Shown here: piece after piece, positions 1,959 to 9,759 of the stretch
Layout: each line of letters begins with the position of its first letter
Position numbering within the stretch: the first letter of the stretch is position 1
Origin: Vicinamibacteria bacterium
GTDB taxonomy: Bacteria; Acidobacteriota; Vicinamibacteria; Fen-336
Length of the DNA: 53,306 nt
Direction of reading: 5' to 3'
Assembly: GCA_035570235.1 (NCBI GenBank)
Contig: DATMML010000055.1
Span: 1 to 53,306, forward strand
Notes under the pieces: generated by a model
The model's database searches: none
What the model was told of the DNA's origin: nothing
Seen by the model: the letters and a program-made list of their open reading frames with translations, nothing else
Program-made: the position numbers and the translations under genes

Positions 1959-3359
<1,401 letters not shown>

Positions 3360-3378
3360 GGAGTTGTGGTGCCCGCCC

Positions 3379-4896
3379 TCAGTGCGTTCCCGCCACGGCG
3401 GGGGCGGCATCCGCATCCGTCCCAGCCTCTTGCGTGCTCTCCGGCTCGAAGGGGAGGACGATGCTGGCGGTCGTGCCCTGCCCGGGCGTGCTGCTCAGGG
3501 TGATGGTGCCGCCGTGGTCGGCCACGATCTTGTGGGTGAGGGCGAGGCCCAGCCCGAGGCCAGTGTCCTTGGTGGAGAAATAGGGCTCGAAGGCGGTGCG
3601 GGCGTCCTCCGCGCTCATGCCGTGGCCGGTGTCGCGCACGCTCACCACCAGGCACTCCGCCCCGCCCTCCGTCCGGCCCCGACGGATGGAGAGGTCGAGG
3701 AGCCCGCCCCCCGGCATGGCGTCGAGAGCGTTGATGAGGAGGTTCAGGAAGCAGGTCTTGAGCAGCTCCGGATCGGCCACGATCCGGGGCAGGCCCGCCT
3801 CCGTCTCCACGGCGAGGGCGATGCCCTGGTCCTTAGCCTTGTGGTCGACGAGCGAGGCCACCTCGCGGAGCACCTCGTCCACCGCGCAGGGGCGGGGGTC
3901 CAGCCGCATGGGCTTGCCGAAGGAAAGAAAGTCGCCCACCAGGCGGTTGAGGCGGCTGATCTCCGCCTTCACGTTCTGGAGGATCCGGTCGTAGTCCTCC
4001 CGCTGCCCCGGCTCCGCGGGGGCCATCCGTCCCCGCAGGTGGTCGATGGAGAGGTTGATGAAGTTCAGGGGGTTGCGGATCTCGTGGGCCACCGCGGAGG
4101 CCAGGCGCCCCATGGCCGTGGACCGCTCCGCGAAATGCAGCCGCTCCTCCAGCCGGCGGTTCTCGCGCAGGCGCTCCACCATCTCGTTGAAGGTGCGCGA
4201 GAGACCCACCATCTCGTCTCCGCCCCGGGGCGACACCTGGACCGAGAGGTCGCCCGCGGCCACCTTCCGGGCCGCGTCCGTCAAGTCCCGGAGGGGCCCG
4301 CCGAAGGACCAGGAGAGGTAGAAGGAGAGCACGATGCCGAGGGCAAAGACGCCGAGGGTGACCATGATGCGGTTCAGGAAAGCCTCTTCGGAGAGGGCGG
4401 AGAAGTCGTCCAGGACGCGCGTGATCAGGAGGTAGCCCACCCGCTTGTCCTGCACCACGATGGGGATGGTGAGGGTGGAGGTTTTCTGGTTCGTGGCCGA
4501 GCCCACCTCGCCCAGGAACCCGCGAATGACGACCTCCGTGCCTCTCCTCTTTCCCCGGACCAGACGCTTGCCCACGATGCCTGGGTTCGTGGAGGCCTGG
4601 ACCTCGTCCGTGGCGTCGGCCAGGGTCACGTCCGCCACCCCCAGCTGGCGCAGCTTCTCCACGTAGGCCTTCAAGGCGACCTGGGCGTCGCCCTCCGCCG
4701 CCGGCTGCTCCTGGGCCACCTCGATGGCCTTCGACAACTCCTCGGTGTAATCTCGCACCTGCGACAGCAGCTTGCGCTCGCTCAAAAGGTGGAGCATGAA
4801 GAGGCAGGCTCCGGAAAGGACCAGCAGGGAGACCATCATCACTAGGAGCTTGGTCTTGAGGTCGAAGTCCGGCAGCCGCCGGAGAAGCACGCTCAT
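3379..4896 (-). CDS. Membrane sensor histidine kinase (HAMP-HisKA-HATPase)
   Basis: This 505-residue kinase begins with a transmembrane helix (LLVMMVSLLVLSGACLFML) and a ~130-residue extracytoplasmic sensor region containing a Cache-like IPIVVQDKRVGYLLITR stretch. A second membrane helix, a HAMP domain, the H-box AVAHEIRNPLNFI, an N-box (NLLINALDAMPGG), a G1 box DTGHGM and a G2 box GLGLGLAL follow. It should autophosphorylate and pass phosphate to the regulator encoded 19 bases downstream. The long frame continues upstream to 6936, but that part is antisense to another gene. The ATG at 4896, followed by a short basic segment and the membrane helix, is the natural start. Confidence 0.93.
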   Translation of the reverse strand: MSVLLRRLPDFDLKTKLLVMMVSLLVLSGACLFMLHLLSERKLLSQVRDYTEELSKAIEVAQEQPAAEGDAQVALKAYVEKLRQLGVADVTLADATDEVQASTNPGIVGKRLVRGKRRGTEVVIRGFLGEVGSATNQKTSTLTIPIVVQDKRVGYLLITRVLDDFSALSEEAFLNRIMVTLGVFALGIVLSFYLSWSFGGPLRDLTDAARKVAAGDLSVQVSPRGGDEMVGLSRTFNEMVERLRENRRLEERLHFAERSTAMGRLASAVAHEIRNPLNFINLSIDHLRGRMAPAEPGQREDYDRILQNVKAEISRLNRLVGDFLSFGKPMRLDPRPCAVDEVLREVASLVDHKAKDQGIALAVETEAGLPRIVADPELLKTCFLNLLINALDAMPGGGLLDLSIRRGRTEGGAECLVVSVRDTGHGMSAEDARTAFEPYFSTKDTGLGLGLALTHKIVADHGGTITLSSTPGQGTTASIVLPFEPESTQEAGTDADAAPAVAGTH

Positions 4897-4962: not shown

Positions 4963-6849
4963 ATGAGCTCGCCCCCCGGCCACACCCCGCCCAGCCAACT
5001 GCTCGTCGCCACCAGCGACTCCACCACCCGTGCCCTCCTCCGCAAGGCCCTGCACGTGCGGGCGGTGGAGGTGGTGGAGGCGGCGGATGGGGTTGAAGCC
5101 CTGGCCCTGGCTCGCCGGCTGGACCTGGACCTCATCCTGCTCGATGCCTTCCTGGCCGTGGTCGACGGGATCTCGGTCTGCGCCCGCATTCGGGCCGTGC
5201 CCGGGGTCGACCAGCCCCCCATCGTCATCATCGGCTTGAGCTCGTGGCGGACGGTTCAGCTGGCCTTTGCGGAGGGAGCGGACGAGATCCTGCCCAAGCC
5301 CCTTCACCCCCCCCTCATTCGCTCGCGGGTCGAGTACCTGCTCCGCCGGCGGCGGCAGGAGAACCGGCTGCGCCTCATGGAGCGCGCGGTGGAGGCGGCG
5401 GGGAGCGGAATCACCATCCTGGACGGCCGCTCCTCCGAGTATCCCCTGACCTACGCCAACCGCTCCTTCCTGGACATGACCGGCTATCCCGCCCCGGAGA
5501 TCCTGGGCAAGAACCTCCGGCTGCTCCGGGGTCCGGAGACGGACGTGGCCGCCACCACCGAGCTCCGGGATGGCATGGCGGCCGGGCAGTCGACCCGCGT
5601 GCTCCTCCGGAACTATCGGAAGGACGGCACGCCCTTCTGGAACGACATCTCCACCTCGCCGCTGCCCGACGTCTCCGGCCGGGTGACCCACTTCGTGGCC
5701 GTGCAGACGGACGTGACCGCGCGGATGGCGAAGTCCGGGAAGCTCGAGGCGAGCCATCTGGAGGAGTTCGCCCGGGAGCGCACCCGCGAGCTGGAGGGCG
5801 TCCTGAGCAGGGTGGAGGATCGGCGCCGGTTCACGGAGACGATCCTTAACAGCATGAACGCGGGGGTGGTGACCTCCGATCTCTCGGGGCTCATTTCCTT
5901 CGCGAACCGGGCGGCCCTCCACATCCTCGGAGTCAGCCTGGCCAACTGCCGGGGGCGCTCGGTGCTGGAGATCTTCGGGAACCTGGAGGAGCTCAGGGAG
6001 GCCATGAAGCGGGCGGGGGGCGGGCGCGAGGCGCGTCTCGACTTTCCCCTCATCACCCCGGGAGGGGGCCGGCTCTACGTGGGCATGTCGGTCATGCGGG
6101 CGCCTGCGGAGCTCGAGGCCGAGGTGGGCTATGTCTTTCTCTTCCGCGACCTTGCGGAGACCCTCGAGAGGGACAGGCAGGAAGAGGAGCGAGCCACCCT
6201 GGACGACGAGGCTGAGGAAGAGGCGGCCCCGGTGACGGCCGTGACCGCCCCCCCTACGGCGGGAGAGGCCAACCGCGAGCCCCCGCCAACTACCGCGGAG
6301 GAGGAAGAGGAGGACGAAGCCTTGGTCGCTTCCGCGGTCGGGCGGCGGCGTCCCCACCTCGCTCTGCGCTACTGCGCCCCCGTCGAGCTCGTCCGCCAGG
6401 CGGCGGAGACCCTGGCCAAGCGCTCCCCCGAGGGGTGGCCCGACGTCGGTATCGATGCCCCGGAACACCTGCCCGAGGTCCTCGTGGATCGCCAGCAGGT
6501 GGTGGAGGCCCTCGCCCGCCTGCTGGACAACGCCGCCCATCGTTCCGTGGACAAGGCCCGGCTGCGGGTGCGTCTGGCCGAGACCCAGGCCCTGGGCGAG
6601 CGGGGGGTCCGGGCGGAGCCCTTCGTCCGGGTGGATATCCTCCTCCCCCGGGAGGAGATCACCGACGAGGACCTGGGGGGGGACGGAGAGAGCGCGCGCC
6701 GCCTCCAACACCGCCGGCAGGACCTGGCCACCGCGGAGCAGCTCCTGCAGGCCAACGGCGGGCGCCTCGTGCCCTCGCCCCCCGAGCACGACGTCCGGTC
6801 CCTGTCCGCCTTGATCCCTATGGGAAGCCCCCCCGAGGCCCCCGGCTAG
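4963..6849 (+). CDS. Receiver-LOV-PAS-degenerate ATPase protein, LOV lacks the photoactive Cys
   Basis: The 628-residue protein has four parts. Residues ~10-130 are a receiver domain with the phospho-Asp in LILLDAF and Lys in LPKPL, but the N-terminal acidic pair is replaced (LVATSD). Residues ~140-260 are a LOV-type PAS domain: GKNLRLLRGPETD, NYRKDGTPFWN and VAVQTDVT match the flavin-binding LOV consensus, except that the adduct-forming Cys is Leu185. Residues ~290-400 are a second PAS. After a Glu-rich linker comes a weak HATPase-like region with an N-box-like LLDNAAH but no recognisable G1/G2 boxes and no HisKA histidine. GGAGG precedes the ATG. It is divergent from the kinase at 4896 and is probably a flavin or redox sensor rather than an active kinase (inference). 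Confidence 0.88.
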   Translation: MSSPPGHTPPSQLLVATSDSTTRALLRKALHVRAVEVVEAADGVEALALARRLDLDLILLDAFLAVVDGISVCARIRAVPGVDQPPIVIIGLSSWRTVQLAFAEGADEILPKPLHPPLIRSRVEYLLRRRRQENRLRLMERAVEAAGSGITILDGRSSEYPLTYANRSFLDMTGYPAPEILGKNLRLLRGPETDVAATTELRDGMAAGQSTRVLLRNYRKDGTPFWNDISTSPLPDVSGRVTHFVAVQTDVTARMAKSGKLEASHLEEFARERTRELEGVLSRVEDRRRFTETILNSMNAGVVTSDLSGLISFANRAALHILGVSLANCRGRSVLEIFGNLEELREAMKRAGGGREARLDFPLITPGGGRLYVGMSVMRAPAELEAEVGYVFLFRDLAETLERDRQEEERATLDDEAEEEAAPVTAVTAPPTAGEANREPPPTTAEEEEEDEALVASAVGRRRPHLALRYCAPVELVRQAAETLAKRSPEGWPDVGIDAPEHLPEVLVDRQQVVEALARLLDNAAHRSVDKARLRVRLAETQALGERGVRAEPFVRVDILLPREEITDEDLGGDGESARRLQHRRQDLATAEQLLQANGGRLVPSPPEHDVRSLSALIPMGSPPEAPG

Positions 6850-6981: not shown

Positions 6982-7443
6982 ATGCGTACGTCCCGGACGA
7001 TTCTGCTCGTGGAAGCGGATTCCGGCTGCGGGCAAGCCCTCGCAGCGGTCCTCCGGCGCCAGGGGGACCGCGTGCGTGTGGCCCGGACCCGGGCCGAGGC
7101 CCTCCTGGCCGCCCGCCGCCAGCCCTACGACCTCGCGATCGTGGACCTCTTCCTGCGCGGGGGGGGGGCCGAGCTGGCCCGGGAGCTCGCGCACTCTGTC
7201 CCCAGGCTGTGCCTGAGCCTAGGCGCCCGTCTCGAACAGCTGGAGATCCTGGAGGCCGCCTTGGGCTTCCCCGTGCACCGCAAGGCGAGGCTTCCCGCCC
7301 TGCTCAGAGGCCGAGGCGCTTCATCCAACGGTAGAGGGTACGGGGGGAGACGCCCAAGATCTCGGCGGCCTGCTCGCGCCGCCAGCGCGCCTGCTCCAGG
7401 GCCTGGCGCACTCGGGCCGGGTCGGGGCCGTCGTCACGGCTGA
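6982..7443 (+). CDS. Single receiver-domain protein with basic tail
   Basis: Residues 1-~112 form a receiver domain: TILLVEAD, the phospho-Asp in YDLAIVDLF, and a Lys in HRKARLP. The remaining ~40 residues are a Gly/Arg/Ala-rich tail that is antisense to the DNA-binding end of the regulator at 7304-8686, giving a 140-base tail-to-tail overlap. The tail has no recognisable fold and may only reflect the lack of a stop codon. Start at 6982 was preferred over a TTG at 6961 because the domain begins there. Stand-alone receivers usually act as phosphate carriers or allosteric partners; the neighbouring kinase at 8683-9759 is a candidate partner. Confidence 0.6.
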   Translation: MRTSRTILLVEADSGCGQALAAVLRRQGDRVRVARTRAEALLAARRQPYDLAIVDLFLRGGGAELARELAHSVPRLCLSLGARLEQLEILEAALGFPVHRKARLPALLRGRGASSNGRGYGGRRPRSRRPARAASAPAPGPGALGPGRGRRHG

Positions 7444-8686
7444 GGTCCTCCGCAGGGGCGGGGGGTGAGGCGGGGGCGGGGTGAGGGGCGGCGGGGGCCG
7501 CCACCGGGGCGAAGGACCCGCGCGGGGAGCGCTGCACGATCTCGGGCGGCAGGTCGCTCACGTCGATCATCTCCCCCTCCGCGAGCAGACCGGCCCGCTC
7601 CACCGCGAAGTGCAGCTCGCGCACGTTACCCGGCCAATCGTGGGCGGCCAGGGCCTGGAGGGCGGCGGGGGAGAAGCGCTTCTGGGAGGGGAGCGAGTGG
7701 GAGAAGTGCTCCACGAGCAGGGGAATGTCCTCCGGCCGCTGCCGCAGCGGGGGGATCACCACCCGCACGCCGTGGATGCGGTAGAAGAGGTCCTTGCGGA
7801 ACCGCCCCGCCGTCACCTCCGCGGCCAGGTCGCGGTTGGTGGCGGCCACGAGGCGGAAATCGGCCCGGCGCTTGCGCGTGGCTCCCACCCGGTAGAACGT
7901 TCCGCTGTCCAGGACGCGCAGGAACTTGGACTGGATCTCGGGGGCCATCTCCCCCACCTCGTCCAGGAAGAGCGTCCCTCCGTCCGCCACCTCCACGAGC
8001 CCCGGCTTCTCGTTCCCCGCCCCCGTGAACGCCCCGCGCTCGTGGCCGAAGAGCTCGCTCTCGAGCAGGGTCGAGGGCACCGCCGCGCAGTTCAGGTCCA
8101 CGAAGGCCTTGTTGGCGCGGGGGGAGATACGGTGCAAGTGGGAGGCCAGAAGCTCCTTTCCCACCCCGCTCTCGCCCTCGATCAGGACCGGGGTGCGGGC
8201 GGCGGCCACCATCTCCACCGTATGCAGGACCTTCTGGAGCTCGGGCGAGCGGGTCAGGATGTCGGAGGCCATCCCGCGCTGGACCTGGAAGCGCAGACGA
8301 CGGTTCTCCCGCTCCAGGACCGTCTTGTCTCCCGCCTTCTCCACCCGCATCCCCAGCTCTTCGAAGTTGGGGGGCTTGGTCAGGTAGTCGAAGGCCCCGA
8401 GCCGCATGGTCTGGATGGCGGACTGGACGTTGGCGAACCCGGTCACGATGATGGTCTGCAGCTCCGCATGCTCCTTCTTGACCTTGGCCAGGATGTCGAC
8501 CCCGTCCGCGTCCGGCAGCTTGAGGTCCAGGAGCAGCACGTCCCACTCCGCGGTGGCCAGGGCCTTGTAGGCCGCCTTGCCGGTGGGGCAGACCTTGACC
8601 TCGTGGCCCGCCTTCTGGAGGAAGCGGGCCACGGTGAGGCCGAACGTGGCCTCGTCCTCCGCCACCAGCACCCGATAGCCGCTCAT
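7304..8686 (-). CDS. NtrC-family sigma-54-dependent response regulator
   Basis: This 460-residue regulator has a receiver domain (E10/D11, phospho-Asp D54, TKPPNFEEL), an AAA+ domain with GESGVGKE, a canonical GAFTGA loop and LFLDEVGEM, then a Pro/Ala-rich linker and a Fis-type helix-turn-helix (RREQAAEILGVSPRTLYRWM). It should activate sigma-54 promoters. Its ATG overlaps the stop codon of the upstream kinase (ATGA at 8683-8686), which implies translational coupling and partnership. The frame is open much farther upstream, but that part belongs to the kinase gene in another frame. It is a paralogue of the regulator at 1959-3359. Confidence 0.93.
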   Translation of the reverse strand: MSGYRVLVAEDEATFGLTVARFLQKAGHEVKVCPTGKAAYKALATAEWDVLLLDLKLPDADGVDILAKVKKEHAELQTIIVTGFANVQSAIQTMRLGAFDYLTKPPNFEELGMRVEKAGDKTVLERENRRLRFQVQRGMASDILTRSPELQKVLHTVEMVAAARTPVLIEGESGVGKELLASHLHRISPRANKAFVDLNCAAVPSTLLESELFGHERGAFTGAGNEKPGLVEVADGGTLFLDEVGEMAPEIQSKFLRVLDSGTFYRVGATRKRRADFRLVAATNRDLAAEVTAGRFRKDLFYRIHGVRVVIPPLRQRPEDIPLLVEHFSHSLPSQKRFSPAALQALAAHDWPGNVRELHFAVERAGLLAEGEMIDVSDLPPEIVQRSPRGSFAPVAAPAAPHPAPASPPAPAEDLSRDDGPDPARVRQALEQARWRREQAAEILGVSPRTLYRWMKRLGL

Positions 8687-9759
8687 GCCCTCTCCGCCGC
8701 CTTCATGACGACCCTGAAGCAGGCCCCACTCCGCCGGGGGCTGTGCACGACGTCGCCCCCCCACCGGCGCACGAGCGTGCGGGCAATGGCCAGACCCAGC
8801 CCCGCCCCCCCGCCGACGTTGGTCGTGAAATAGGGCTCGAAGATCCTGGCCCGGATCGCGGGGGGAACGCCGGGGCCGGTGTCGATCACGTCCAGGAACA
8901 AGTTGGGCCCCGTGCGCCCCGCGCGCAGGGTGAGGGTCCCGCCCCCGGGCATGGCCTGCGAGCCGTTCATGGCCAGGGCCATCACGACCTGCTTCAAGGA
9001 GTCCGTCTCCAGGCGGGCGGGGGGGAGCTCCTTGGGGATGCGCGCCACCACCCGGATCCGCGCGAAGGCGGGATGCCGCTCCAAAAGGCGCAGGGCGGTG
9101 CCCACGGTCGTGCCGAGATCGGAGGTGGTTCCGGGATCGGCCCGCGCGGAGTCGAGCAGGAAGCGCACGATGCCCTCGCACCGGCCGACCTCGCGGCGGA
9201 TGAGATCCCGGAACTTCCGCGCCTCGCGCGCGGCCTTCCCCGAGCCCTTGGTGGCCAGGGAGGCCAGGGCCTCCGCGCAGCCCGCGATCCCGGCCAGCGG
9301 GTTCGAGACCTCGTGGGCCACCCCCGCCACGAGCTGGCCCAGGAAGGCCAGGCGGTCGGAGGCGATCAGGCGCATCTCGAGGGTCCGCCGCTCCGTGATG
9401 TCCTCGAAGGCAGAGAGGACGTGGGTCACCTCGGGTCCTTGGCGCACGGGCAGGCGCCGCACGTGGAAGAGGCCGGCGCGCGTCTCCGCGGTCTCCTCGT
9501 GGGGGATGCCGGTCTTGAAGACGTGGCTGAGGACGGGCAGGGTGGCCCGATACCCGCGGGGCGGAAGCACCCCCCGGAGGGGACGGCCGAGAGCCCGGCC
9601 GCGGGGCACGCCCAGGGGCCCCTTCTCGCGCAGGCTGTTCCAGGCCACCACCCTGAGGCCGCGGTCCACGACGTAGAGCCCGATGGGGAGGGCGTCGAAA
9701 ACCGCCGCCCCCAGACCGGAGAGCGGCTCGGCTTGGGTCCGGGGGAGGCGCTGGGCCAC
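8683..9759 (-). CDS. Soluble PAS histidine kinase
   Basis: The 358-residue kinase lacks membrane segments. Residues ~15-130 form a PAS domain (AVFDALPIGLYVVDRGLRVV to AFEDITERR). The H-box is LVAGVAHEVSNPLAGI, the N-box AMNGSQAMPGG, the G1 box DTGPGVP and the G2 box GAGLGLAIARTL. It begins with GTG; a TATACT hexamer ends seven bases upstream. Its stop codon overlaps the start of the NtrC-type regulator gene, its cognate partner by context. The absence of membrane segments suggests sensing of a cytoplasmic signal. Confidence 0.92.
   Translation of the reverse strand: MAQRLPRTQAEPLSGLGAAVFDALPIGLYVVDRGLRVVAWNSLREKGPLGVPRGRALGRPLRGVLPPRGYRATLPVLSHVFKTGIPHEETAETRAGLFHVRRLPVRQGPEVTHVLSAFEDITERRTLEMRLIASDRLAFLGQLVAGVAHEVSNPLAGIAGCAEALASLATKGSGKAAREARKFRDLIRREVGRCEGIVRFLLDSARADPGTTSDLGTTVGTALRLLERHPAFARIRVVARIPKELPPARLETDSLKQVVMALAMNGSQAMPGGGTLTLRAGRTGPNLFLDVIDTGPGVPPAIRARIFEPYFTTNVGGGAGLGLAIARTLVRRWGGDVVHSPRRSGACFRVVMKAAERA

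Follow-up and report, generated by a model that had tools for sequence, protein, structure and literature searches.

Natural LOV* domains, in which the adduct-forming cysteine is replaced, were surveyed by Yee et al. (2015, PMC4682037), who found about 70 entries using a filter of at least nine of the other ten conserved LOV residues. Such domains bind flavin, and that of the halobacterial BAT protein (BAT-LOV*) changes conformation on reduction; in Cys-less VVD and YF1, photoreduction to the neutral semiquinone by light suffices for signalling (PMC4682037). Histidine kinases with the order LOV-PAS-kinase region, such as Brucella LOV-HK (PDB 6ph3 and 6ph4), carry the Cys together with a phospho-acceptor domain and the G boxes. 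DivL of Caulobacter, a histidine-kinase relative with PAS input, has lost the kinase chemistry and signals through contacts (PMC5361649), and pseudo-receivers are defined as receivers missing at least one of the residues DD, D, T and K (Bourret et al. 2025, PMC12632262). Cys-less LOV domains, pseudo-receivers and DivL-type pseudokinases are thus each known, and their conserved combination in the protein described here appears to be new; a literature search confined to open papers, and therefore weak evidence on this point, returned no report of a LOV pseudokinase or of a conserved Cys-less-LOV/pseudo-receiver/pseudokinase combination.

The gene lies at positions 4963..6849 (+) of the window, the whole 53,306-nucleotide stretch of acidobacterial DNA that was analysed, and encodes 628 amino acids arranged, from the open reading frame, its translation and the orthologues, as a pseudo-receiver, a Cys-less LOV domain, a second PAS domain, an acidic linker and a degenerate HATPase domain. 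The translation and its motifs are as described in the original prediction, which had noted a near-full LOV signature at 5365-5740, a span corresponding to aa 135-259; the LOV domain itself covers aa 135-255 (5365..5727, +). In place of NCRFLQ the protein has NLRLLR at aa 184-189 (N184-L185-R186-L187-L188-R189), within a GKNLRLLRG motif (aa 182-190; 5506..5532, +), and the other LOV motifs are found at aa 217-227 (NYRKDGTPFWN) and aa 245-248 (VAVQ). The adduct Cys is Leu185 (5515-5517), whose codon, CTC, differs at two bases from TGC, which would encode Cys, and the motif's Gln is Arg189; both replacements had been predicted and are read directly from the translation, although the Gln, described as following the Cys, is four residues after it and not adjacent. 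The LOV domain contains no Cys and a single Trp (W226). With the adduct Cys missing, a thioadduct cannot form.

When we searched the PDB with phmmer, the top matches were LOV domains (9vf7, E 7.1e-35; CagFbFP 6rhf, E 2.5e-29), and models for a LOV histidine kinase and for YtvA are among the best partial matches in NCBIfam, all of which score far below the cut-offs for whole proteins. AlphaFold (AF2), run with 72 LOV sequences, predicted the LOV fold confidently (pLDDT 94.6; VIA Z 20-21 to LOV structures), and this predicted fold is nearest to MrLOVe (9vf7; Z 21.5, 127 residues, rmsd 1.3), with Brucella LOV-HK 6ph2 at Z 20.6; among the matches listed by a fold search with the whole protein, receivers and LOV domains predominate, and the search is uninformative for the C-terminal part. 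In a tree of 111 LOV/PAS rows, built on few columns, the five orthologues form one clade (100/99) nested within the LOV rows. Tree and fold together rule out a placement outside the LOV clade, one of the outcomes that had been named as fatal to the prediction. The protein has the fold, the sequence placement and the six polar flavin contacts of a LOV photoreceptor and lacks its adduct Cys (Leu185 in all five orthologues), which makes it a Cys-less LOV* domain in the sense of a LOV-clade domain with the Cys replaced. It falls outside the search filter of PMC4682037: seven of the nine residues named in that text are kept (G, N, R, L, N, N, Q), with F64 as Leu and Q66 as Arg, Lys or Thr, so that relative to those LOV* domains the Gln and Phe of NCRFLQ are replaced as well.

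The tree also holds isolated Cys losses elsewhere, to Ala in two Halomonas, to Leu in Methyloversatilis, and to Pro and Met in Methylococcaceae. The LOV domains of Halomonas denitrificans and H. saccharevitans (L074 5016-5387 and L083 5016-5387) carry NARFLQ, a natural Cys-to-Ala change, keep every other contact and are nested among Halomonas Cys-LOVs. In the small Methyloversatilis/Methylococcaceae LOV group the Cys is replaced by Leu, Pro and Met (L040 5769-6128, L051 5751-6113, L105 5766-6125), and two of its members (L040 and L105) have an additional Cys-less PAS domain just ahead of the Cys-substituted LOV.

The domains around the LOV have lost catalytic residues, in agreement with what had been predicted for the receiver and the ATPase-like end. 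In the receiver (aa 11-124; 4993..5334, +; Pfam Response_reg 3.2e-14 over aa 15-123) alignment places T17/S18 at the DD pair and G91 at the Thr, which makes it a pseudo-receiver by the definition of PMC12632262, and D61 and K112 are kept; like other pseudo-receivers it has the receiver fold without DD and T, and it differs from them in keeping D and K and in being fused ahead of a LOV* pseudokinase. The second PAS (aa 285-400; 5815..6162, +; Pfam PAS_8, best stretch 291-346) is homologous, by alignment and tree, to the PAS that precedes HisKA in active relatives. In the place of HisKA lies a disordered acidic linker (aa 401-460; 6163..6342, +) in all five orthologues; it is not conserved (14-17% identity, invariant at 0 of 60 positions), with pLDDT mostly 30-50 over aa 411-460. 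Pfam recognised the receiver and two PAS domains in the 628-aa protein, with no match in the C-terminal third and no HisKA anywhere. The C-terminal 160 aa nevertheless align over their whole length with active HATPase domains in hhalign (probability 97.7, E 2.5e-12), and a PDB profile search gave only weak matches, in which kinases were mixed with unrelated S7 proteins. In this degenerate HATPase_c domain (aa 461-622; 6343..6828, +) the motif table shows no conserved N-box Asn, the residue being absent in four of the five orthologues and present only in the window protein, and the G1 and G2 boxes are absent in all five; HisKA and these boxes are present in the active kinases used for comparison, two of which are encoded next to the gene in the window. 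There is thus neither a phospho-acceptor His in a HisKA nor a G1 or G2 box to qualify the protein as a histidine kinase, and it is co-linear with two active kinases from other families of the phylum (L107 and L108). Judged on its sequence, the protein is a pseudo-histidine kinase, descended from kinases and having lost the residues for both kinase and receiver chemistry.

The search for full-length orthologues found them in a single acidobacterial family, that of the window, in five genomes of four genera with the window's included; no further ones were found among 193 genomes of the class, and a phylum-wide sample of 396 genomes yielded only distant relatives in G068 and G273. One orthologue lies on contig PMCG01000048, 'Acidobacteria bacterium isolate fen_336'. 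The four other orthologues are 50-56% identical to the window protein, with identity highest in the receiver (63-72%) and LOV (62-64%), lower in PAS2 (49-61%) and the C-terminal part (37-48%), and lowest in the linker noted above. Leu occupies the Cys site in every one of the five, which answers the proposed check on homologues in related genomes, and since the four others are independent, Leu185 as a chance or sequencing error is ruled out. Pairwise dN/dS, estimated by NG86, a crude method for genes so rich in GC, was 0.10-0.48 in every domain, which argues that the protein is kept by purifying selection.

Active relatives point to its origin. In another family of the phylum, G273 (L108) has a LOV with NCRFLQ, PAS, HisKA and HATPase, co-linear with the window protein over LOV, PAS2 and HATPase; this kinase and Brucella LOV-HK share the domain order of the window protein, and both have the Cys, phospho-acceptor domain and G boxes that it lacks, whereas it carries an N-terminal pseudo-receiver in addition. 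G068 (L107), from another family of the phylum, has a receiver, two PAS domains, HisKA and HATPase, and immediately downstream of each of these two kinase genes lies one for an NtrC-type sigma-54 regulator. Closer to the window protein, G005 (L018), a genome of the same family, has an active-looking PAS-HisKA-HATPase relative. Given these active relatives, the simplest account is that the Cys-less LOV protein derives from a family of active kinases.

The roles of the polar flavin contacts in LOV domains are well established; where we know them in YtvA numbering, we take the contacts to be N61, R63, a second phosphate Arg, N94, N104 and Q123. With residue numbering against phototropin and YtvA mapped by alignment, the corresponding residues of the window protein are N184, R186, R202, N217, N227 and Q248, and all six are invariant in the five orthologues (hypergeometric p 0.0075, against a background of 55 invariant columns among 121 LOV columns); the Asn, Asn and Gln positions singled out by the original prediction, N217, N227 and Q248, are among them. 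For comparison we took 83 homologous domains that have the Cys, the majority retrieved by a scan without the Cys motif in its patterns. Thirty-four columns are conserved at 90% or more in these Cys-LOVs. All five orthologues retain 23 of them, and a replacement in every orthologue is seen at no more than three: C185 by L, Q189 by R, K or T, and G246 by A or T. Further changes in the pocket, common to all five, are Leu at position 153, mostly Ala, Thr or Ser in Cys-LOVs; Leu for Phe at position 187, found in 5 of the 83 Cys-LOVs; and Thr, Val or Ala for Ile, Leu or Val at position 231. By its equal 22-residue spacing to the Gln, W226 would match W467 of iLOV, an electron donor (numbering in PMC5645311). 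With its polar contacts invariant, the LOV domain has most likely retained flavin binding, with either FMN or FAD as the ligand.

Taken together, the findings favour a pseudo-histidine kinase that would act as a flavin redox sensor through protein contacts, with light acting by photoreduction as a possible second route, a reading to which we assign a probability of roughly 0.5. The loss of the catalytic elements and the conservation of the LOV contacts make a non-catalytic contact sensor the best reading, as had been proposed; the LOV placement, the fixed Cys loss, the conserved contacts and the lost catalysis bear that proposal out in part, and the remodelling of the pocket beyond the Cys weighs against it. 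In all probability the protein senses by means of flavin and has contacts with partner proteins as its sole output; we infer the flavin occupancy, the redox or light input, the contact output and the identity of the partner. Starting from an ancestor that would have been an active PAS/LOV sensor kinase, signalling would go through the redox state of the flavin, because the Cys is missing and an adduct is impossible. A cellular reductant, or photoreduction with the conserved Trp226 as electron donor, would take the flavin to the neutral semiquinone or hydroquinone state; N5 would then be protonated and Gln248 rearranged, and the change may pass along the helix after the LOV to PAS2 and the degenerate HATPase. 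Since neither receiver nor kinase chemistry is left, altered contacts would be the simplest output, as in DivL: a kinase or response regulator that serves as partner would be bound differently, and phosphorylation would play no part. DivL itself keeps the kinase fold, with Tyr in place of the His, whereas the window protein has no phospho-acceptor helix domain and no ATPase boxes. The precedents of Cys-less LOV domains, combined with contact output, favour this redox sensor; BAT-LOV* is the nearest of them, having the adduct Cys replaced, the flavin contacts and Gln kept and a receiver in the protein, and it differs in its Pro at the Cys site and its GAF and HTH output, where the window protein has Leu and a dead kinase (PMC4682037). 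Several points count against the flavin-sensor reading: the changes fixed in the family (L153, L187, T/V/A231 and A/T246) could hinder flavin, BAT-LOV* photoreduces poorly and carried only modest flavin when expressed (PMC4682037), and the orthologue loci yielded no conserved neighbour as a partner.

Many PAS domains serve as dimerisation or docking scaffolds. The main rival to the redox sensor, which we consider rather unlikely, is accordingly that the LOV-derived domain no longer binds flavin, being empty or holding another ligand, and is only a dimerisation or docking scaffold of the pseudokinase. It is kept alive by the remodelled pocket, changed in all orthologues at L153, L185, R/K/T189, T/V/A231 and A/T246, and by two relatives that have lost flavin contacts and keep the rest of the protein: the PAS of G068 has lost four (R186 to W, N217 to V, N227 to G and Q248 to I) with HisKA and HATPase kept, and in G377 (L129) the LOV motifs are likewise missing and the kinase kept. 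The same relatives, in which LOV function is lost, set off the six polar contacts, none of which varies among five orthologues that are about 50% identical, and this difference favours flavin over an apo scaffold. Changes at equivalent positions are also tolerated in CagFbFP, whose variants I52T (7ab6), Q89E (9u5n, an FMN complex by its title) and I52V A85Q (8pm1) are still LOV structures according to their PDB titles, and the I52T variant retains flavin fluorescence (PMC8131319).

A second alternative, which we regard as distinctly improbable, makes the protein primarily a blue-light receptor with daylight photoreduction to the semiquinone as its physiological input. It draws on light signalling via the semiquinone in Cys-less VVD and YF1 (PMC4682037), on the retention of the donor W226 and of Q248, and on the distribution of other light sensors: neither a canonical LOV nor a BLUF was found in the window's genome, which also speaks against the window protein being a spare copy beside a canonical LOV. 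Each of the other four orthologue-bearing genomes holds a Cys-containing LOV (L021, L113, L114, L115), fused to a SpoIIE phosphatase in three of the four and ending at a contig edge in the fourth (G006, L113), so that light could be read there without the Cys-less protein; photoreduction of natural BAT-LOV* is, moreover, inefficient (PMC4682037). In nine other family members no LOV of either kind was found at the thresholds used, and Cys-LOVs thus co-occur with the Cys-less LOV in 4 of 5 genomes against 0 of 9 (Fisher p about 0.005, uncorrected for ancestry or genome completeness). That the gene is a decaying pseudogene, as the loss of three catalytic functions might suggest, is very improbable, given a frame that is open in four other genomes, the well-preserved LOV and receiver, and dN/dS well below 1 in all domains.

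In the window the LOV gene is flanked by two intact pairs of sensor kinase and sigma-54 (NtrC-type) regulator, at 1962-4896 (-) and 7307-9759 (-). Its divergent neighbour is an active-looking kinase of the HAMP-HisKA-HATPase type (3382-4896, -), paired with a sigma-54 regulator (1962-3416, -), and the LOV gene lies upstream of the second kinase (8686-9759, -) and regulator (7307-8686, -). Downstream of the LOV gene, a short receiver-like ORF (6982-7440, +; Response_reg 3.4e-4, below the cut-off), possibly a second degenerate receiver, overlaps with its 3' end the opposite-strand sigma-54 regulator gene. No conserved neighbour or partner gene was found among the orthologue loci, where the window's flanking pairs are not conserved, and we therefore name no partner from context.

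Going beyond the redox sensor favoured above, we put forward tentatively, as a possibility with the odds somewhat against it, that the lineage has a conserved flavin sensor of its own which has lost the chemistry of photoreceptor, receiver and kinase alike, and that flavin redox change or photoreduction alone would switch the protein contacts by which it controls a separate kinase or sigma-54 regulator. If true, this would be a natural 'adduct-free, phosphate-free' LOV signalling protein. It bears on two open questions, the need of LOV signalling for the cysteine and the origin of LOV photoreceptors from redox flavoproteins. For these the lineage offers a fixed Cys loss, constrained flavin contacts and no enzymatic output to confuse the readout, together with natural comparisons in the same phylum, in the form of active and LOV-lost relatives.
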